Assembly (NCBI RefSeq): GCF_030547005.1
Contig: NZ_JAUOPN010000002.1
Span: 62,001 to 126,000, forward strand
Source of the DNA: Maribacter sp. 1_MG-2023
GTDB taxonomy: Bacteria; Bacteroidota; Bacteroidia; Flavobacteriales; Flavobacteriaceae
Direction of reading: 5' to 3'
DNA: 64,000 nt
The position numbers and the translations under genes are program-made. The notes beneath the pieces were generated by a model. The model made no database searches. It was not told the origin of the DNA and saw only the letters and a program-made list of their open reading frames with translations. Numbering within the stretch: position 1 is the stretch's first letter; the number at the start of each line of letters is the position of its first letter. Positions 1,670 through 64,000 of this stretch are shown piece by piece.

Positions 1670-2299
1670 ATGTTCGGTTTTTTTAAAGCTCTTTTTACAA
1701 AACAGAACATCATACTTGAAGAGAAAGATCCCATGAAGAAATTTTTAATCGTAGGCTTAGGTAATATCGGTGATGAATATGCAGAAACCCGACATAACAT
1801 TGGTTTCAAAGTACTAGACGAAGTAGCACGTGAAAATGACTTTACTTTTGAAACCGTAAAGCTTGGCGATATAGGGTCATACAAGGTAAAAGGTAGAACT
1901 ATAATTTGCCTTAAACCTTCCACATATATGAACAGAAGCGGGAAGGCTATGAAGTATTGGATGGATAAAGAAAAAATACCTCAAAGTAACATTCTAGTCA
2001 TAACAGATGACATCAATTTACCTTTTGGCACCATTAGAATAAAAACTAAAGGTAGCAATGGAGGTCATAATGGATTAAAAGATATAGAGCTGTTTCTACA
2101 GACTATACTTTACAACAGATATCGTTTTGGAGTTGGTGCTGACTTCGGCAAAGGTAGACAGGTAGAATATGTTTTAGGGCAATGGAGCGAAGAAGAAAAA
2201 GCACTAATGCCAGAGCGATTAAAAAAGTCAACCGAAATTATTAATTCATTTGTACTAGCGGGCATTGCTAGAACTATGAATCAATTCAATAATTCTTAA
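1670..2299 (+). CDS. pth: Peptidyl-tRNA hydrolase
   Basis: Pth releases peptides from prematurely dropped peptidyl-tRNA and is normally essential. The family signatures are present: GLGNIGDEYAETRHNIGF with the catalytic His, KPSTYMNRSG, and DDINLPFGTIRIK followed by GSNGGHNGL. The chosen ATG gives a 21-residue basic/hydrophobic extension before the core start MKKFLIVGLGN; such an extension is common in flavobacterial Pth, but an internal start at 1733 would give the canonical length. The last four bases overlap the end of the convergent lipoprotein gene. Confidence 0.96.
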   Translation: MFGFFKALFTKQNIILEEKDPMKKFLIVGLGNIGDEYAETRHNIGFKVLDEVARENDFTFETVKLGDIGSYKVKGRTIICLKPSTYMNRSGKAMKYWMDKEKIPQSNILVITDDINLPFGTIRIKTKGSNGGHNGLKDIELFLQTILYNRYRFGVGADFGKGRQVEYVLGQWSEEEKALMPERLKKSTEIINSFVLAGIARTMNQFNNS

Positions 2300-2982
2300 A
2301 GCACTTTAAAAGTAAAAATACCGGTATCTGATTTATTACCTTCTTCGTCAATAACAACAACTCTCCAGTAATACACCGTATCTGATGTTACAGATACTTT
2401 TATACTTGTTACTGGTGATGACAATTCTCGAATTAAATTTATTGGTGGTGTTTCTACAGAGAAATACACTTCATAACCAGCGATATCATTATCTAAATCA
2501 GAAGCAGACCATGATAATTCAACCTCATTATTAATATCTTTAAAAACATTATCTGAAGAAGCCGGACTTATAATAGTTGCAGGAAAAGGTGCAAATGTGG
2601 TTCTAGATCCAGAATTATAAAAATACCACTCTTTACTAGATACCGTTTGCTCTACTTCACTATTTCTAGAGCGAACAAGCCATGAAAATTGCTCGCCTTT
2701 TGCCAAAGGTAATTGAGCAGAATTCGACGCCGAAACAATGGTCTGTACTGTACCAGTGGCGATATTAGTAACACGTAGTTCATACGTCTCGGTATTATCT
2801 GCCAAATCCCAACGAAACTCTACTCTACTCGTCTCCTCACCTATATCAACACCTGTCGTACATTCAGAATTCTCTTCTGGAAAAACCAAAAGCACTGCTT
2901 CAGGTGGATTTGCGGCACTTTTCTTTTTACAACTGGTAACAGCCATAAACAAACACGTAATAAGTACTAAAAAGCGCATCAT
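2296..2982 (-). CDS. Lipoprotein with fibronectin III-like repeats, unknown function
   Basis: The 228-residue product begins with a short hydrophobic stretch ending in a lipobox (AVTSC, then KKK), so it is predicted to be a lipid-anchored envelope protein. The rest looks like two beta-sandwich modules related to fibronectin type III: about residues 28-120 (FRWDLADNTETYELRV) and 130-225 (ELSWSASDLDNDIAGYEVYF, YYWRVVVIDEEGN). No catalytic motif is visible. Its start codon overlaps the stop codon of the upstream metalloprotease gene (ATGA), which implies translational coupling and a role in the same surface process. Two adjacent ATG codons are possible starts. Confidence 0.8.
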   Translation of the reverse strand: MMRFLVLITCLFMAVTSCKKKSAANPPEAVLLVFPEENSECTTGVDIGEETSRVEFRWDLADNTETYELRVTNIATGTVQTIVSASNSAQLPLAKGEQFSWLVRSRNSEVEQTVSSKEWYFYNSGSRTTFAPFPATIISPASSDNVFKDINNEVELSWSASDLDNDIAGYEVYFSVETPPINLIRELSSPVTSIKVSVTSDTVYYWRVVVIDEEGNKSDTGIFTFKVL

Positions 2983-5900
2983 TCTTTAATTACTTTAGAA
3001 GTTCCATTTATTGTTCTTCCCTCATATTTTAAGTAATAAATACCCGTAGATAGCGAACTCAAATCTAAACTTATGATTCCATTTAATGGCAGTATAGAAT
3101 TACTAGAAATATATCTGCCGTCGGCACTAAAAACACTTACAGTTACTTCTTCTTGCTGAGTACCTAAATAGATTTGAACAATATCTTTTACAGGATTTGG
3201 ATATACAACCGGCTGTACATAAAAACCTATCTGCTCTTCATAAACACCTTGACATGGTATATCTGTAAAAACCTTTAAAGTATTCAATCCTTTATCTAAA
3301 TCTAGTGCTACTGTTGATTCTTCTGTTTGTATAGCCACACCGTTTAGTTCTATGGTGTAAAATAACGCCCCGTTCATTTCAAGTGTTACTTGAGAGCCAT
3401 CTACCGCAATTTTAGAAGTTACATTAAGTGATGAAGGTTCGGTAATCTGCACTTCAACACAATACTCTTGATACGCGATAACACCATCTGTCCCCGTCAT
3501 ACACAAAGTATATGTACCAGACTCAAGATTTGCTAAATTAAAGGCATTCGAAAAATTCTGTGTTAGATTTAATCCATTACCAGAAACTACCACCTGGTAA
3601 TCTAGCGCCAACTTTGGAACAATAGAGAGCGAACCATCGTTATTATCTCTACACGTTTCACTTTCTAAACTAATAATAAAGTTCTCAACAGGGAAACGAT
3701 ATATAGCACAACCAGAAGCATCTACCTCTTGACCGGCAGGCGTACCTAAACATAAATCATCACCATCATCAAACACTCCATCATTATCGTCATCTGGTCT
3801 AAAAACCCCCTCTACACAAGCTTCAAGAACAAAAGAATTCAAACTACCACCATCTGAAGGAGCGTTATCCTTAATTTCTAAAGTCCATTCACCCAATATA
3901 GATTCTCCATTAAAAGAACTTAAACTCCCTAAAGGTTTTACCAAACCACTAATACCAGGATTAACCGAACAAGTAAAAGCCGGACTATCATCATCAAAAG
4001 TTGCATCAATATTTCGCGAATCACCACATGAATTAGAAACCAAAGTTACCGTAGTACCTGCAGGCGATGTTAAGGTAATTACCAAATCGGACAGAAAAGT
4101 ATGTTCAATATCTAGCTGTACGTTAATATCTGCAACAGGCAAATCTTCAAAAAACACAATTTTAGAGGTAATAACTGGTGTACCGCTACTTGATATAGCG
4201 ATTGGCATACCTGTAGCACTTTTTGTAGCGCAGTTAAATTGAACTGTAGAAAACCTAAAAGGGGTGCTAAAAACACCTTCTCCACAATCATTTTTTGGCT
4301 TTACCCTCCAAAAATAAGTGCTATTATTATCTAAAAGCGTAGGCGAGAACGAACTATCATTAACAGTACTCGATTCTATAATATTCGTGAAAGCAGCATC
4401 ATCTGCAATTTCAACATCATACTGGGTATTCCCAACCGATGTTCCCCATTCTAACAACACATCGGTAGACGCGTTCTCAAAACTATCAACAGGTGAAATT
4501 AGAATTACTTCCTCAAAATTATCATCGTAAATTCTTAACTGCAGTATAATTTCTTTTGTTAACGTATCTGCACTCGCTAAAACCCGAACAGGATAAATAC
4601 CAGGATCTACAGTAACGATTCCTTCAAAATCAACTGTAACCAAAGTGTCGTCTGCATCTGCGACAGCAGGTGTAAAAGTTGCTGTAATACCTATTGGCAA
4701 ATCAAGTACGCTAAAGACACTTTCTTCATCAAAACCTAAATCGGTCTCATAGGTAAAATCAACACTTAGATTGTCTGGTTTACAAATATCAAAAACAACC
4801 TCTTCAAAATTTAGTACGATTTCTGAAGGAGTTATAGAAAAAATTGCATCATTAACGGCAAAGAAAATATTGTCATCTGCCTTAATCATTATACGTCCCG
4901 TACTGGTAGGAATGTTTGGCACAATTATAGTCTGACTACCATCGTTCAAAATATTCTCCTCTAGAACAATAGGAAAAGTTACACCTCCATCTGTAGATAA
5001 ATATATAGAAACAGTTTCTGCGCTTACAGGTAAAACATCAGTATTCGCAACATCCCAAGTAATGGTTTGCAACGATCCAGCCTCAAAAGATTCTCCATTA
5101 GTTTGCGAACTAATTAAAAAAGGACCGGCCTCATTGACCACCGAAACTGTCATCTCATCAGAATCTGATTGTCCGCCATTTAAAGCATTATCACGAACGG
5201 TTAATGAAAAATTCATTTCACGCCCGACATTAGACAGCGTTTCCCAAGCAGAACCAGAAGTTGGTACTGTCTGAGTTAGTTCTCCGCTTAAAATTCTATT
5301 TAAATTAGGAAAATACCTTTCGGGAACCAGCGTAGGCGGTAAGGATCTAAAATTTGCCCCAGCTGGGTTATCAGGTCCAAATGTAGCTTGAGTAACTATT
5401 CCGTTATCAATCTGCTCCCAAGTATAACTAAGCACATTTGCTGCATCAACATCTGTAGCCTCACCCGTAAGAACAAAAGGAGTTCCTTTAGGTATAACGT
5501 AATTTGTTAAAGGCGTAATCGTAGGCGGATTATTGGTGAGCACATCTGTAACTCCGCATGAAACAGTTTTTAAGTAATCTCGTATCTGTACAATGCTAAC
5601 GTAATGAAAGTAATCATCACTATTAGAAGCAACGTTATTAACACCAGTTATGCCTGCATACCCCATAATTGTTGTACCACTAGCTGGCTCAACCTGCACA
5701 ATCGTACCTTCAGAAGTATGTGAAAATGAATGGTTTGCACCTAATTGATGCCCCATTTCATGAGCAACAAGGTCAATATCAAAAGCATCGCCTACAGGAG
5801 AAGATAACGTGCTGTAACCACTACCCTTTCTGCCATCTGTACATACAGCGCCAATAAAACCAGAATTACCATCTAAGGTATTATCCTGCTGATTAAAAAG

Positions 5901-57635: not shown

Positions 57636-57671
57636 GGTGTATACTACATCTCAATAGTATACACCATTTTT
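57636..57671 (+). terminator. Terminator after the CDGSH gene
   Basis: GGTGTATACT and AGTATACACC form a perfect 10-base stem around a ten-base loop, followed by ATTTTT. It ends 31-60 bases after the CDGSH stop codon. Confidence 0.8.
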
Positions 57672-57714
57672 GAAATATTCCAAGAGAGATAAAAACGCTT
57701 TACCATATAGGATC

Positions 57715-59007
57715 ATGAAAAAATATAAGAATATAATTATTTTACTTTTAATTGTTAGTCCTTTATTCGGTATTGCTCAAATCTCGGTGAATCAAGACAG
57801 ATTAGAGAAACGAATTAAAGATCTTGCACAGTTTGGCATTCAAGAAAATGGCGAAACAGAACGCGTTGCTTTTAGTGATACCGATGTTGCAGCCCAGCAA
57901 TGGGTTATTGAGCAATTAAAAGCCATAGATATTGAAACTCATATCGATTTTGCCGGCAATGTTATTGGAATACGAAAAGGGACAAAACCAAATATGAAAC
58001 CAATTTCATTTGGCTCACATATAGATCGCGTTCCGCATGGTGGTAATTATGACGGCTGTGTTGGCAGTATGGCTTCCTTAGAAGTTCTTAAGGTGCTTGA
58101 TGAAAACAACGTTAAAACAAAACACCCCTTAGAAATTATCATTTTTTCTAATGAAGAAGGTGGTGTTGTAGGTAGTAGGGCAATCGCCGGACATTTGAAA
58201 GAAAGTGCTTTTTCGGTTAAAAATTCAACAGGGTATACCATTGGCGAAGGTATGATGAGATTAGGTGGAGATACCACCAGACTTGCAGAAGTTGCTCGTA
58301 AAAAAGGAGATGTTGCTGCCTTTATAGAACTACATATTGAACAAGGTGGTACTCTTGAACAAGAAAATTTAGAGATTGGTATTGTAAAAGGAATTGTAGG
58401 ATTAAAATGGTGGGATGTTCAATTCAACGGTTTTGCCAACCATGCCGGCACAACACCAATGAATGCTAGAAAAGACGCGCTTTTAGCAGCCTCAAAATTT
58501 ATCATTGCCGTTAATGAAGTTGCCACAAGTTTCGATGGCACACAAGTTGCTACGGTAGGTAGAATAAAGTCAGAACCAGGCGCGCCCAATGTAATTCCGG
58601 GTCATGTGATTACGAGTCTTGAAATTAGAGATTTGTCGTCTGAGATTATTGAAAAGGTATATACTGCTATCGAAAAAAGAGCGGAAGAAATTAGTATTGA
58701 ATCGGGAGTTGAAATTTCCTTTAAAAAATTGGATACTACGGCAGACCCTGCTATTATGGATTCAACCATACAATCTGAAATTGAAAAAAGTATTCAATCT
58801 CTTGAATTGAGTTACAAGTCAATGCCAAGTGGCGCTGGTCACGATGCCCAAGACATGGCACTTATTGCACCAACGGGTATGATATTCGTTCCCAGTAAAA
58901 ATGGCATTAGTCACTCTCCTAAAGAATTTACCTCTGCGGTTGACATGGCAAATGGTGCCAATGTATTATTGCAGACTATTTTAGCATTAGACAAAAAGCT
59001 TAAATAA
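57715..59007 (+). CDS. Exported M20-family amidohydrolase (carbamoylase/allantoate type)
   Basis: After a signal peptide (MKKYKNIIILLLIVSPLFGIAQ) the roughly 430-residue product has the dinuclear zinc M20 core of the hydantoinase/carbamoylase family: SHIDRVPHGGNYDGCVGSMA, FSNEEGGVVGSRA, ELHIEQGGTLEQE, ANHAGTTPMNARKDAL (dimer/substrate lid), SGAGHDAQDMA and KNGISHSPKEFT. Members hydrolyse N-carbamoyl amino acids or allantoate; the exported location is unusual for those. ATG 57715 is used; TTG 57670 would only add an implausible leader. Confidence 0.9.
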   Translation: MKKYKNIIILLLIVSPLFGIAQISVNQDRLEKRIKDLAQFGIQENGETERVAFSDTDVAAQQWVIEQLKAIDIETHIDFAGNVIGIRKGTKPNMKPISFGSHIDRVPHGGNYDGCVGSMASLEVLKVLDENNVKTKHPLEIIIFSNEEGGVVGSRAIAGHLKESAFSVKNSTGYTIGEGMMRLGGDTTRLAEVARKKGDVAAFIELHIEQGGTLEQENLEIGIVKGIVGLKWWDVQFNGFANHAGTTPMNARKDALLAASKFIIAVNEVATSFDGTQVATVGRIKSEPGAPNVIPGHVITSLEIRDLSSEIIEKVYTAIEKRAEEISIESGVEISFKKLDTTADPAIMDSTIQSEIEKSIQSLELSYKSMPSGAGHDAQDMALIAPTGMIFVPSKNGISHSPKEFTSAVDMANGANVLLQTILALDKKLK

Positions 59008-59013
59008 TAGTTT

Positions 59014-59481
59014 ATGAGAGACAATCAATCCATACATATTGAGCAACTTCTAAATGCATCAATTGAACAGGTATGGAAAGCATTAACCAATGTGGATGAT
59101 ATGCGGCAATGGTATTTTAATGCTATTCCTGATTTTAAGCCGAAGGTTTCTTTTAAAACTAGCTTTTTAATAACGAATTGTGGACGAAACTTTACTCATA
59201 ATTGGATTGTAACAGCCGCTATTCCAAAATCTAGAATCAGTTACACTTGGACCTTCAATGAATACCCTGGAGAAAGCATCTCTACATTTGAACTATGTGA
59301 GAAGGAATAACAAACACTACTTAAGGTCACAAGCGAAATCACAAAAGATTTTCCAACACATATTCCAGAATTTAAAAGAGAAAGCGGCGAGGCAGGATGG
59401 TCGTATTTAATTAAGGAAAGCTTACCCTCTTCCTTCAAAAATCAGACAAATTTTAACAGCAATCTTCTACCCTTAAATTAG
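59014..59481 (+). pseudogene. SRPBCC/AHSA1-like gene interrupted by an in-frame TAA
   Basis: The first 98 codons encode the start of an SRPBCC fold: IHIEQLLNASIEQVWKALTN, then MRQWYFNAIPDFKP and YTWTFNEYPGESISTFELC. Codon 99 is TAA (59308-59310). The same frame continues for 57 codons and gives the missing end of the fold, including TLLKVTSEITKDFPTHIPEF and GEAGWSYLIKESL, the Trp-containing C-terminal helix, ending at TAG 59479. One base change probably broke the gene (for example GAA to TAA). It follows the M20 gene by six bases. Readthrough is not excluded. Confidence 0.82.
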
Positions 59482-59513
59482 TACCTTAGTTCAACTAACA
59501 AACTATCTTGAAC

Positions 59514-61064
59514 ATGAAAAAAGGACTACTCTTTGGTGCATACTTATTATGCGCCACTTTCGGATTTTCTCAATCCACCGAAGACATCGTTAATGCCATT
59601 GAAAAAGAAGGTGTTGAAAACTCGCAATTAGAGCAATTAGCTTACGAATTAATGGACCTTAATGGACCACGACTAGTAGGTACTCCAGAAATGAAAACAG
59701 CACATGACTGGGCAATAAATACCTATAAAAAATGGGGTATTTCTGCCGAAAACCAACAATGGGGAACTTGGAAAGGTTGGCAAAGAGGCATCACGCACGT
59801 AGATATGGTATCGCCACGCGTAGCTTCGCTTCATGCCACACAATTGGCATGGAACCCAGGCACAAGTTCTAAAGGTGTTACCGCATCTTTAATCACATTG
59901 CCTAGTTTCAAAGACTCCTTATCTTTTGTAACATGGCTTCCGAATGTAAAAGGAAAAATAGTTATGGTGAGCATGCTACAACCTACAGGTAGACCAGATG
60001 AAAACTGGGAAGAATATGCAACTAAAGCATCCTTCGAAAAAATGAAAACCGAGCGTGATTCTATTGAAAAAATTTGGAGACAGAACATTAATAATACAGG
60101 ATACACGAGTAGAAATATCAATTCTGCATTTGAAAGAGCAGGCGCAGTTGGTATTGCACAATCAAGATGGTCTGAAGGTTTTGGAGCCAATAAAATATTT
60201 AGCGCAGGTACCGATAAAATTCCCGCAGTAGATATTTCTTTAGAAGATTATGGAATGTTGTACAGAATGGTAGAACATGGTGCCGACACTAAAATTAAAA
60301 TAGTAGCGGAATCTAAAGACTTAGGCATAGTACCTACTTTTAATACTATTGCAACCATACCTGGTACCGAATTCCCAGATGAGTACGTAATTCTTTCTGC
60401 TCATTTCGATTCATGGGATGGTGGAACAGGAGCAACGGATAACGGTACAGGAACAATTACCATGTTAGAAGCTGCTCGTATTCTTAAAAAAGTATATCCG
60501 AATCCTAAACGAACGATTTTAATTGGTCATTGGGGAAGCGAGGAACAGGGGTTGAATGGTTCTAGTTCATTTGTTCAAGATCATCCAGAAATTGTAGCGG
60601 GTGTACAAGCTGTTTTTAATCAAGATAATGGAACTGGTCGTGTAGTTCGTTTATCGGGACAAGGATTTTTACATGCCTACGATTACTTAGGGCGTTGGTT
60701 AGAAGCTGTTCCTGAAACGTATAAAAATGAAATAGAAACGACCTTCCCAGGGTCACCTAGTCGTGGTGGATCTGATTATGCCTCGTTTGTAGCAGCAGGT
60801 GCTCCGGCTTTTTCGTTAAGCTCTCTTAGTTGGGATTATTGGAATTACACATGGCACACAAATTTAGATACGTATGACAAGATTGTATTCGATGACGTAC
60901 GTAACAATGCTATTCTAACAGCTATTCTTACGTATATGGCTTGTGAAGATCCAGAGAAAACATCACGCGAAAAAGCAGTGTTAGGTATTAACCCTAGATC
61001 TGGTGAAAAAGGAGAATGGCCAACACCAAGAACACCACAACGCAAAGGTGGACAAGACGAATAA
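59514..61064 (+). CDS. Secreted M28-family metallopeptidase with PA-like insert
   Basis: The roughly 516-residue product has a signal peptide (MKKGLLFGAYLLCATFGFSQ), an N-terminal lid, a protease-associated-like insert around residues 100-260, and an M28 zinc core: ILSAHFDSWDGGTGATDNGTG, LIGHWGSEEQGLNGS (catalytic Glu pair), SRGGSDYASFVAAGAPAF and YTWHTNLDTYDKI (late zinc His). M28 enzymes are aminopeptidases or carboxypeptidases. ATG 59514 is chosen over TTG 59508. It ends five bases from the convergent fusion gene. Confidence 0.92.
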   Translation: MKKGLLFGAYLLCATFGFSQSTEDIVNAIEKEGVENSQLEQLAYELMDLNGPRLVGTPEMKTAHDWAINTYKKWGISAENQQWGTWKGWQRGITHVDMVSPRVASLHATQLAWNPGTSSKGVTASLITLPSFKDSLSFVTWLPNVKGKIVMVSMLQPTGRPDENWEEYATKASFEKMKTERDSIEKIWRQNINNTGYTSRNINSAFERAGAVGIAQSRWSEGFGANKIFSAGTDKIPAVDISLEDYGMLYRMVEHGADTKIKIVAESKDLGIVPTFNTIATIPGTEFPDEYVILSAHFDSWDGGTGATDNGTGTITMLEAARILKKVYPNPKRTILIGHWGSEEQGLNGSSSFVQDHPEIVAGVQAVFNQDNGTGRVVRLSGQGFLHAYDYLGRWLEAVPETYKNEIETTFPGSPSRGGSDYASFVAAGAPAFSLSSLSWDYWNYTWHTNLDTYDKIVFDDVRNNAILTAILTYMACEDPEKTSREKAVLGINPRSGEKGEWPTPRTPQRKGGQDE

Positions 61065-61068
61065 ATAG

Positions 61069-63657
61069 TTATAATTGATTTTCAAGCTCAAGGCTATCTG
61101 CTGCTTGTAGTGCTTTCTTAATTGCAGTACTCCATAGTGCATAGCCTTGTTTGTTTAAATGCAATCCGTCAGAAAGGTATAATTCTGGTATCGGTCTGTT
61201 ATCTGTGGTAATCATCTGTGCAAAAACATTGATGTATTGCGCATTCAGTTCGGTAATAAAATACTTAGACAGCATTAAATTTGTCTCCATAATAAGTGGA
61301 ATTAAAGCTTCTCGCTCCACACTTGGTTTTAAACTGATCAACGCCAATTCTGCATCGGGATATTTATTAGTTATCAATCCTACCAATTCCATACAACCAG
61401 AAAGTACCTCTTGGGGAGTTTTACCACTATTCAAATCATTCTCTCCAGCATACAAAACAATTTTTGACGGGTTTGCCTCTGTAAATATCTCATCAAAATA
61501 ATGAATACACCATGCAAATGTAGACCCGCCAAAACCAAGGTTCACCACATTAAACGGACTCAAATCGCGTTTCATATTCACCCATAAACGTACCGAAGAG
61601 CTCCCATAAAAAGTAATTAGATTTTCTTGTGTCGGTAATTTATCGATACGTCTTTTCAGTCTTTTGATCTCATTACACCAAATAGCAGGCGGTTCTTCTA
61701 AATTGTCGGCACCCGAACTAGATACGTTCAACTGTTCAGCTCTTTCGATCGCTTCTTGTACATAGCCTTGATATTCCGCTTGGTATTGCTCCATAAAAGC
61801 ATATAAATCTTCATTGCTTTTAGAAGGTACTTTTTCACTCAGTAAAAATGGTTCCTTAATGGCACAGTAGTATAAAGATTTGCCAATTCTATGATCAAAA
61901 TTTACCATGACTACAGGTATTATATACGGCTCTGGATCGGTATGTAATGCCAATTTAAAAGCGCCCATTTTAAAAGGACCGGGAGATTCGTCTGTTCTAT
62001 AAGAGGTGCCTTCAGGGCTTATAATTAAATTGTATTTCTGTTTTAAATGTTTAGATGCTTCACTGTAAAATATACTTCTTGCCTCTTCTTTTCTATTATT
62101 AGAAGTTTCATCAGATTCTTTGGTATACACATTTATATAGCCAAGGTTGTCGTAGTAATTCTGATGACCGTATTCTTGTCCCTGCCCTATTCTAACTGTT
62201 CTAATACCAGGTTCCTCGTATTTTTTATACAAAACCATGGCACTTAGAAAATGAGAATCTAGGGTAATCTGAAAATTATTATTTAGTGTATAATGTGGGT
62301 CATTGATTAAGTGATTATAAATAAAAATATTACCGGTATCATTAGGCAAATTATCCCATCCTTCAATAATATAGGGTACATTTTTAAACACCTTCATGGT
62401 CAACTCGGCACAAACCTTTCTATTTTGCTCAGCATCATTACTGTTCTTTTCTGCTACATTCTCATAAATCTGCTGTAAACCGCTTATAAACTCATGCTCT
62501 TTTTGATCTTCGCCCAGCAGTTCTAAACTTAATGAGGCAATATGCCGTTCTAGAGCAGTACCATTCTTAACCAAACCTGTTAAGGCATCATAAGCAAACT
62601 GTTTGGTGGTATTACTTTTTAGTAGATGCGGTACTTGATGTAAAGGTGATGATAATAATAGGCGAGATTTATTATTCTTTATCAATTGATAAACGGCCTG
62701 CAGATTGTGCTTGCCCAACAAACCAACATAACGTACAAAAGCAGCATTTAGCTGATTGCCCATAAGCCACAATAAGCGCTGATAAAATTGACCTTCAAAA
62801 GCATCATCAATTTGAAACAGCTTCATTAAATCGCCTTCAGGAATAAAATAAGCAGAAGTCTTTGTGTTCGTAATAGCAGAGCAAATATCTTTCTCCTTCA
62901 ATAGGCATGACCACCCAAATACAAAGCCGGAATTTTTAATGGAGCGCTGTTTAATCTCAATCGTGTTCTCAATTCGTTTAACTGTAACTTCTCCGTGAAT
63001 AAGAATAAACAAACCATTACTAGAACCGTCTTGTACATATAAAACTTCATCTGGTTCATATTCCCTACGTTCTGCCAACGCAGCTAAAGCCATTAAATTT
63101 TTCTCTTCAAAATAATCTAGAAATGGAGAGCGTCGCATTAATGAAACAATCTCTTCTTTTTCGGAAGCAGGAGAAATAAAAAACTGTCGGTCTTCAACAA
63201 AAGGCTGAAACCTTACGGGACTCAATAATTCAGTTTGCTTCGTTAGGGCTGTATGCAATACACGGTACAATTTTGAACCAATATTCTTAAGCAAAATATT
63301 CTGATGTCCTTTTTTTAAGTACGTATCTAGCTCGTGAAATGGAATTTCAAAAAATGATGCTTTTGGTGAAGCAACAGTAGCTTTATATGTAAATCTTTTG
63401 GGAGTATTGAATCCGTTTAAACCAATAGTAGAAAAAGGTTCTGAGTTTTGACATACGAGAATATCACTTTCAGGATTATCAAGTGAAATGTAATAGTTTA
63501 CACTACCTTCTATAAGCCATCTAAACGTTCTTACTTTTTTATGAATATAACTGATGGCATATCCTTTAGCGTATGTTTTTAACGCTCCGTTCGGGAAATA
63601 TTCTTTTAATTTTTCAGTAGTTATTTCTTGCTTTAAAACTCTATTTTGGTGTATCAT
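61069..63657 (-). CDS. Fusion of two cNMP-binding domains, a PlsC-like acyltransferase and an SGNH hydrolase
   Basis: The 862-residue protein has four modules. Two cyclic-nucleotide-binding-like folds lie at about 20-130 and 175-285 (EPDEVLYVQDGSSNGLFILI; HGEVTVKRI). A PlsC/LPLAT-like acyltransferase lies at about 420-625, with NHLIND at 448 and ISPEGTSYR at 547; its first motif is shorter than the usual NHxxxxD. An SGNH/GDSL hydrolase lies at 680-850 with GSSS (685), GFGGS (708), GEND (738) and DGLH (830). No membrane segment is evident. It could remodel acyl groups under nucleotide or redox control, but substrates are unknown. Confidence 0.85.
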   Translation of the reverse strand: MIHQNRVLKQEITTEKLKEYFPNGALKTYAKGYAISYIHKKVRTFRWLIEGSVNYYISLDNPESDILVCQNSEPFSTIGLNGFNTPKRFTYKATVASPKASFFEIPFHELDTYLKKGHQNILLKNIGSKLYRVLHTALTKQTELLSPVRFQPFVEDRQFFISPASEKEEIVSLMRRSPFLDYFEEKNLMALAALAERREYEPDEVLYVQDGSSNGLFILIHGEVTVKRIENTIEIKQRSIKNSGFVFGWSCLLKEKDICSAITNTKTSAYFIPEGDLMKLFQIDDAFEGQFYQRLLWLMGNQLNAAFVRYVGLLGKHNLQAVYQLIKNNKSRLLLSSPLHQVPHLLKSNTTKQFAYDALTGLVKNGTALERHIASLSLELLGEDQKEHEFISGLQQIYENVAEKNSNDAEQNRKVCAELTMKVFKNVPYIIEGWDNLPNDTGNIFIYNHLINDPHYTLNNNFQITLDSHFLSAMVLYKKYEEPGIRTVRIGQGQEYGHQNYYDNLGYINVYTKESDETSNNRKEEARSIFYSEASKHLKQKYNLIISPEGTSYRTDESPGPFKMGAFKLALHTDPEPYIIPVVMVNFDHRIGKSLYYCAIKEPFLLSEKVPSKSNEDLYAFMEQYQAEYQGYVQEAIERAEQLNVSSSGADNLEEPPAIWCNEIKRLKRRIDKLPTQENLITFYGSSSVRLWVNMKRDLSPFNVVNLGFGGSTFAWCIHYFDEIFTEANPSKIVLYAGENDLNSGKTPQEVLSGCMELVGLITNKYPDAELALISLKPSVEREALIPLIMETNLMLSKYFITELNAQYINVFAQMITTDNRPIPELYLSDGLHLNKQGYALWSTAIKKALQAADSLELENQL

Positions 63658-63787
63658 ACTCCTTCTAACTTAACCAGATAAAAGCGAAAAAAAAAGGACT
63701 GCCAACATTAAAACCAATTTGTCATTTTAGGAAATTGATATTGGTTAAAACCGTAAAAATTAAGCCCATAAACTTAGAATAACCAAA

Positions 63788-63847: not shown

Positions 63848-64000
63848 GTGCAGAACTTTATACTAGACAAAACCTTTAAAGGAGAAAATTACACTGCTAC
63901 TAGATTAGCTAGAGCAGAATATGAAAATTGCATTTTTGAAGGATGTGATTTTTCGAAAGGTTATCTAGACAACCAAATTTTTCTAGAGTGCGAGTTTATA
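63848..64000 (+). CDS. Pentapeptide-repeat protein, 3' end outside the window
   Basis: The frame from GTG 63848 is open to the window end and encodes 51 residues: a typical leader (VQNFILDKTFKGENYT) followed by pentapeptide-type repeats, for example YENCIFEGCDF, YLDNQIFLECEF, with hydrophobic residues every five positions. Such proteins form quadrilateral beta helices; some mimic DNA and protect gyrase. The start was chosen as the first codon of the recognisable family N-terminus. It is divergent from the fusion gene. Confidence 0.78.
   Translation, partial: MQNFILDKTFKGENYTATRLARAEYENCIFEGCDFSKGYLDNQIFLECEFI

Follow-up and report, generated by a model that had tools for sequence, protein, structure and literature searches.

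We analysed a 64,000-nucleotide stretch of DNA from Maribacter sp. 1_MG-2023 (contig NZ_JAUOPN010000002.1, positions 62,001 to 126,000), hereafter the window. At 61069-63657 on the minus strand it carries an open reading frame (ORF) of 862 amino acids with an ATG start codon. The ORF and its four modules, two cyclic nucleotide-binding (CNB) domains, a PlsC-type acyltransferase domain and an SGNH hydrolase domain, were confirmed. In window coordinates, the features are the following:

61069-63657, minus strand: whole gene for the CNB-CNB-PlsC-SGNH protein, 862 amino acids (ORF, Pfam, homologues, AlphaFold2)
63223-63657, minus strand: CNB domain 1, about residues 1-145, with a non-canonical phosphate-binding cassette (fold, Pfam in homologues only, residues)
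62722-63165, minus strand: CNB domain 2, about residues 165-312, with the cassette FGWS...C259 instead of FGE...R (Pfam, Z-score 16.6 of the predicted fold, residues, motif as given in a passage of PMC2246266)
62527-62721, minus strand: helical linker, about residues 313-377 (AlphaFold2 secondary structure)
61720-62526, minus strand: PlsC-type acyltransferase domain, about residues 378-646 (Pfam, predicted-fold Z-score 17.9 to 5kym, hhalign Prob 98.7)
62248-62316, minus strand: extended motif I, N448-H449 ... F462-QITLD467-SHF, with 13 inserted residues separating the His and Asp presumed to be catalytic (alignments)
62002-62016, minus strand: motif III, PEGTS (548-552), with Ser at the Arg position of many PlsC EGTR motifs (alignments)
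61090-61701, minus strand: SGNH hydrolase domain, about residues 653-856, with S687, G708/G711, N740, D830 and H833 (Pfam, PDB alignment, predicted-fold Z-score of about 22, residues)

Pfam matched cNMP_binding at residues 197-282 of the window protein (E 5e-10), Acyltransferase PF01553 at 521-584 (E 1.3e-7, above the cut-off, with the motif I half unmatched) and Lipase_GDSL_2 at 687-841 (E 2e-8). Together with predicted-fold matches, this bears out the domain order cNMP, cNMP, PlsC-like, SGNH of the original prediction, and in the models the N-terminal and middle regions take the folds named there, a CNB pair and PlsC. The AlphaFold2 model of the whole protein has a mean predicted local distance difference test score (pLDDT) of 73 and a predicted template modelling score of 0.56, and the packing of the domains against each other is not judgeable from the models; a separate model of residues 1-330 has a mean pLDDT of 69.

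The same architecture was sought across genomes by a contig scan of one genome per species (84,980 species) for exact matches to six peptide patterns from the window protein. The scan returned 38 distinct homologous loci of 56-98% identity, all 38 covering at least residues 21-850, and a misassembly or a chance fusion was rejected on this ground. Their titles name Maribacter, Zobellia, Muricauda/Allomuricauda/Flagellimonas, Leeuwenhoekiella, Kriegella, Aquimarina and one Flavobacteriaceae bacterium. The nearest loci, at 98%, fit a Maribacter origin of the window. Exact peptide patterns limit the scan to close relatives, and the shorter forms described below were not among its matches. For residue comparisons, 56 sequences were aligned, namely 45 full-length proteins (the window protein, 37 of the 38 contig-scan loci and the seven genome-search loci L077-L083), ten short forms and one from Persicobacter; near-duplicates are included, some probably from the same species. 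The peptide QITLDSHF was partly a selection rule for these rows, and the sole ORF dropped for this reason (L061) has QITLDSHY instead, with D467 and H469 preserved.

In the SGNH domain, residues 653-856 of the predicted model match the sialate O-acetylesterase of Phocaeicola vulgatus and platelet-activating factor (PAF) acetylhydrolase with Z-scores of about 22, and in the PDB alignment S687, N740, D830 and H833 fall on the Ser, Asn and Asp/His of Bacteroides esterases and acylhydrolases. These four residues and G711 are invariant in 45/45 full-length, 10/10 short and the Persicobacter sequences, and G708 is likewise invariant. The protein thus carries both the fold and the Ser, Gly, Asn and His plus Asp blocks of SGNH hydrolases, in agreement with the earlier description of these blocks as intact.

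The middle domain belongs by its predicted fold to the PlsC/LPLAT acyltransferase superfamily. Model residues 378-646 match the PlsC of Thermotoga (5kym) with a Z-score of 17.9 and a root-mean-square deviation (rmsd) of 4.1 over 220 aligned residues, and since this match begins at the first residue of 5kym, it includes the N-terminal helices of the PlsC fold. Comparison by hhalign against the profile of ten ordinary PlsC proteins from the phylum gave a Prob of 98.7 (E 2e-16), in line with the PF01553 match. A sequence search of the PDB with the PlsC profile returned only 5kym, at E 0.09, with the motif I His and the PEG of motif III aligned.

The hhalign alignment places H449 on the His and D467 on the Asp of motif I, with 13 extra residues between them; both are invariant in the 56 sequences, yet 17 residues separate them and they do not form NHX4D. 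Further residues identical in all full-length, short and Persicobacter sequences are L450, N452, Q463, H469, R486, R489, E495, H498, Y501 and Y502, together with P548, E549 and G550, which preserve the Glu-Gly of motif III, and S552. The original prediction had called the first PlsC motif atypical; it is indeed unusual but not broken, since it carries an insert and its Asp is D467. A broken PlsC was rejected because full, short and Persicobacter sequences share one form of motif I, and the inserted motif I is a family signature. Across four Maribacter pairs, the non-synonymous divergence (dN) of the PlsC domain is 0.033-0.10; the synonymous divergence (dS) is saturated in three of them, and the remaining pair gives a dN/dS of 0.05. 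Over all domains, 8 of 20 comparisons gave a finite dN/dS and the other 12 had saturated synonymous sites.

Membership in the lysophosphatidic acid (LPA) acyltransferases, AGPAT/PlsC proper, is not borne out by the residues. The motif II arginine (R127), present in 10/10 ordinary PlsC proteins, aligns with T512, a position held by Thr in all 45 full-length sequences and in Persicobacter and by Ala or Ser in all ten short forms. The Arg of the EGTR motif is replaced by S552 in 56/56 sequences. In Thermotoga PlsC, the EGTR Arg and K105 were suggested to bind the LPA phosphate, as described in a passage of PMC6688108. Because the motif II Arg and, as weaker evidence, the EGTR Arg are replaced, the sequences make an acceptor other than LPA likely.

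The N-terminal part has the CNB-domain fold, by Pfam for CNB2 and in the predicted models. CNB1 had no Pfam match in the window protein but was matched below the curated cut-off in three homologues scanned (L064, 8e-6; L055, 4e-4; L043, 0.007). With the whole model as a query, the first 44 Foldseek matches listed were PKA/PKG-type tandem-CNB chains, save one axonemal chain (best E 1.6e-11). The model of residues 1-330 gave a best tandem-CNB match at E 5e-11, and its predicted CNB2 aligned with a Z-score of 16.6 and an rmsd of 2.0 over 140 residues; the cUMP-bound CNB of a PycTIR was also among the fold matches (Z-score 15.3). In a PDB sequence search, the CNB profile found nothing at E 0.001 and weak matches at E ≤ 10, the best at 0.0017.

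The canonical cyclic AMP (cAMP) cassette is FGE[LIV]AL..R, in which the Arg holds the cAMP phosphate, according to a passage of PMC2246266. By our placement on this motif, CNB2 instead has W249 and C259 in 45/45 full-length sequences, and CNB1 has L/I/V/W at position 80 and Y/F at 91, so that both cassettes of the Flavobacteriaceae forms are non-canonical. In addition, the adenylate cyclase families PF00211 and PF01295 had no match in the genome at E 0.001, a search that did not extend to other cyclase types. The non-canonical cassettes and the absence of these two families make cAMP unlikely as the signal. Of the "cNMP-type sensors" (cyclic nucleoside monophosphate) proposed earlier, the tandem CNB fold therefore stands, but it should not be taken to mean cAMP sensing.

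To place the protein among its relatives, genomes of the genus, family, order and phylum were compared. Within the same genus, 24 of 36 genomes matched at E 1e-50, with 18 full-length copies, one decayed copy and five genes for the SGNH part only. The decayed copy (L075 in genome G407, 1782-4056) has seven in-frame stops, so that some members of the genus can do without the gene. The SGNH-only genes are 56-59% identical to the SGNH part of the window protein, and the four of these five loci that were read (L071-L074 in G396, G403, G411 and G401) adjoin the same M28 peptidase and amidohydrolase genes that flank most Maribacter loci. In a tree of 70 of 91 domain sequences kept after thinning near-duplicates, which was midpoint-rooted and has several long branches, the SGNH domains of full-length, short, SGNH-only and Persicobacter proteins group apart from 30 ordinary SGNH domains (support 98/84), and the SGNH-only genes of the genus lie beside, not within, the full-length clade. 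Their origin by loss from a full-length gene is thus supported by synteny but not by the SGNH tree.

In the family, 19 of 397 genomes matched, nine with the full-length protein (including the window's own) and ten with a PlsC-SGNH protein of 451-467 amino acids that lacks the CNB pair; the latter genomes measure 1.3-2.0 Mb and are 78-91% complete. Pfam identified the acyltransferase and GDSL domains in 29/29 members scanned and cNMP_binding in 19/29, that is, in all except the ten short forms. Of 395 genomes sampled across the phylum, 70 matched at E 1e-20 and, besides the window's own gene, only by their SGNH part. With a PlsC-domain profile at the same threshold, the window's own gene was the sole match in 395 phylum and 346 order genomes, the next best match in the phylum sample being an ordinary PlsC at E 1.9e-9; these samples hold few Flavobacteriaceae and no Cytophagales near Persicobacter. 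A phage origin was rejected, since 50,697 phage records gave one partial, SGNH-only match and viral contigs none.

The plasmid search returned 52 records, of which one, a Persicobacter megaplasmid, covers at least 80% of the query. This 1.58-Mb plasmid of Persicobacter sp. JZB09 (Cytophagales) carries a 655-amino-acid CNB-CNB-PlsC ORF followed by a 209-amino-acid SGNH ORF, which together align in two segments with residues 28-850 of the window protein (34% identity), and two CNB stretches pass in Pfam. At the junction, TAG-T-ATG, the SGNH ORF begins one base past the stop of the first, so that the split may be a genuine arrangement of two genes or may stem from an error of one base in this single record. 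Since ten small family genomes keep PlsC and SGNH without CNB and the two Persicobacter halves adjoin, the PlsC-SGNH pair is the conserved core of the family. This agrees with the earlier proposal that the acyl-adding and the possible acyl-removing folds belong together.

Combined, these observations lead us to favour, tentatively and at slightly less than an even chance, a bifunctional acyl-remodelling enzyme that acts on an acceptor other than LPA and is gated by a CNB pair that does not respond to cAMP. The protein would probably be cytoplasmic and membrane-peripheral. Judging from fold and residues, the PlsC-type domain would transfer an acyl chain from acyl-acyl carrier protein or acyl-coenzyme A to a hydroxyl of the non-LPA acceptor at the membrane face, and the SGNH domain would act on molecules of the same class by removing or trimming an acyl or acetyl group; together, the two may run a deacylation/reacylation cycle. 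The tandem CNB would either bind a ligand other than cAMP or serve as an assembly module, and may set the activity of the pair or its engagement with the membrane. The "self-contained switch" of the original prediction is likewise something we infer from this arrangement.

Several observations weigh against this explanation. The motif I spacing departs from that of PlsC enzymes, and the EGTR Arg is, by eye, also absent in 4/10 ordinary PlsC proteins, which makes it weak evidence on the acceptor and leaves the motif II change as the only distinctive one. The AlphaFold2 confidence is moderate, and the PlsC-site residues 458-464, 491-497, 512-518 and 549-560 score below 50. In the CNB part, R88 of CNB1 is invariant, three residues ahead of the expected Arg place, and Persicobacter CNB2 reads VRATAS, with an Arg near the canonical place; because of these two arginines, phosphate binding may still occur in the wider family. 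The parts can also occur apart, since ten relatives lack the sensor and the four same-genus loci read keep SGNH without PlsC and CNB; the latter imply that the two activities are not obligately coupled. Finally, SGNH domains can act as transferases, as stated in a passage of PMC9558356.

This last point leads to an unlikely alternative, a two-step transferase in the manner of AT3-SGNH proteins, in which PlsC would load the acyl group and SGNH would deliver it to the final acceptor with no removal at all. That PlsC and SGNH stay together in the short forms and as adjacent ORFs in Persicobacter fits such a relay. However, PlsC enzymes transfer the acyl group directly and are not known to need a relay. 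The solitary SGNH genes of the same genus also speak against it, as does the layout of AT3-SGNH proteins, which according to PMC9558356 have an extracytoplasmic SGNH after the membrane domain, while Pfam found no AT3 in the window protein. Those same solitary genes would suit a somewhat more doubtful explanation, in which the SGNH esterase is the sole working enzyme, PlsC a lipid-binding scaffold and CNB an assembly module, and so would the deviations in all three PlsC motifs. The invariance of H449, D467, E549 and G550 in 56/56 sequences and the dN and dN/dS values of the PlsC domain argue against this explanation.

We regard as less probable still a lipid enzyme switched by cAMP or another cNMP, or a Pycsar-like effector. 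The CNB fold, the match to the cUMP-bound PycTIR domain, the Arg near its canonical place in Persicobacter CNB2 and very weak PADLOC matches of the CNB part to TIR/PycTIR models (E 0.018 and 0.037) are on its side. Against it, the FGE...R residues are replaced in CNB2 of every full-length sequence, the two cyclase families searched are unmatched, and no neighbour is conserved across genera. No cyclase gene was found alongside, as a Pycsar effector would have, PF00211 being unmatched across the whole genome. A defence effector was rejected, as the PADLOC matches are very weak only.

In comparison with Thermotoga maritima PlsC (5kym), a 1-acylglycerol-phosphate acyltransferase, the window protein has the same fold, motif I His and PEG of motif III, but differs in its 13-residue motif I insert, in the replaced arginines of motif II and EGTR and in its fused CNB and SGNH domains. 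With the Phocaeicola vulgatus sialate O-acetylesterase (7pzg/6njc) and PAF acetylhydrolase (1wab) it shares the SGNH fold with Ser, Asn and Asp/His; these are stand-alone domains of about 20% identity, whereas here SGNH is part of a CNB-PlsC-SGNH chain. The AT3-SGNH proteins OafA, OafB and OatA also join an acyltransferase and SGNH in one chain, but with a multi-pass AT3 and an extracytoplasmic SGNH in the passages of PMC9558356, whereas the window protein has a PlsC fold with CNB in front. The AT3 domain PF01757 is not among the four Pfam families matched in the window protein at E ≤ 1. Several CNB sites ahead of a lipid hydrolase are also found in NTE/PNPLA6 and Swiss cheese, which differ in having a patatin-type hydrolase and three CNB sites, as described in a passage of PMC9025805. 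The patatin domain is likewise not among the four matched families. To our knowledge, NTE/PNPLA6 and Swiss cheese contain no acyltransferase domain.

The cAMP-independent regulatory subunit of trypanosomatid PKA (6hyi, 6hyq) also has a tandem CNB and, by the entry titles, was solved with a nucleoside (guanosine or inosine) and not with cAMP, a precedent for another ligand; that subunit is part of a kinase system, and no membership is claimed for the window protein. Each domain is known on its own. The open-licence literature searched yielded no description of their combination, of the split and short forms or of the inserted motif I.

Marine Bacteroidota have unusual membrane lipids, and we know of few lipid-editing enzymes under direct allosteric control. 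If the favoured explanation is correct, a single polypeptide would both add acyl groups and remove them under its own sensor, which would make it a compact lipid-remodelling system that is open to testing. The PlsC domain would then be a variant that differs in the spacing of motif I and in its acceptor pocket, and annotation by family may mislabel such a domain as 1-acylglycerol-3-phosphate acyltransferase. The relatives that keep the enzyme halves together without sensors hint at an undescribed remodelling of a membrane lipid or sugar lipid.

A hint of a sugar-derived acceptor comes from the neighbourhood of the short genes. In six of ten (L108, L109, L110, L111, L113 and L114, from four genera, with 46-58% mutual identity except for one pair at 86%), the short gene directly follows an otsAB-like trehalose-6-phosphate synthase/phosphatase gene, identified by Pfam in one of the six. 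Its predicted start overlaps the end of that gene by 4-8 bases, stop codon included, in four cases and lies 3-5 bases beyond it in two, and a GH15 trehalase-like gene (Pfam on one, the others by similar first residues) stands divergently beside all six. The remaining four short forms are flanked by different genes; the short gene of L105 and L107 is followed by a small ORF that resembles one near the L111 locus. The L111 ORF has weak, below-cut-off Pfam matches to polyketide-cyclase/lipid-transport families, and the L105 ORF has none. The full-length gene shows no trehalose link, and the window genome's own PF00982 gene is on another contig. The trehalose link and a sugar-derived acceptor are therefore suggestive only. 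A bolder version of the favoured explanation, to which we give a small chance, is that a new PlsC subfamily with the extended motif I YNHLxN...FQITLDSHF and an SGNH esterase work as partners that install an acyl chain on a non-phosphate acceptor, e.g., a trehalose-derived glycolipid, and remove it again, and that the CNB pair of the larger-genome Flavobacteriaceae senses some metabolite that is not a classical cyclic nucleotide.

Clustering of the flanking ORFs of 53 loci and the window showed that the neighbours of the full-length gene differ between most Maribacter, Muricauda/Flagellimonas, Leeuwenhoekiella, Zobellia and Aquimarina. Most Maribacter loci have flanking families in common, and a further neighbour set is common to L053, L054, L067 and L070 (titled Maribacter) and Kriegella L063. 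Because the neighbours vary between genera, an operon partner was rejected and the gene looks self-standing. In the window, two genes lie in tandem beside it at 57670-61064, one amidohydrolase-like as judged by eye and the other for an M28 peptidase according to Pfam; this pair recurs in many Maribacter loci. On the other side, the start of a pentapeptide-repeat-like protein (by eye; 63850-64000, plus strand), which is oriented divergently and truncated where the window ends, belongs to a family that flanks many Maribacter copies. Upstream of the gene on the minus strand, TTTTAAT at 63707-63713 and TAAGTTAG at 63665-63672 are near-identical in 13 aligned regions titled Maribacter or Zobellia, and these two blocks are possible promoter or 5′ leader elements.
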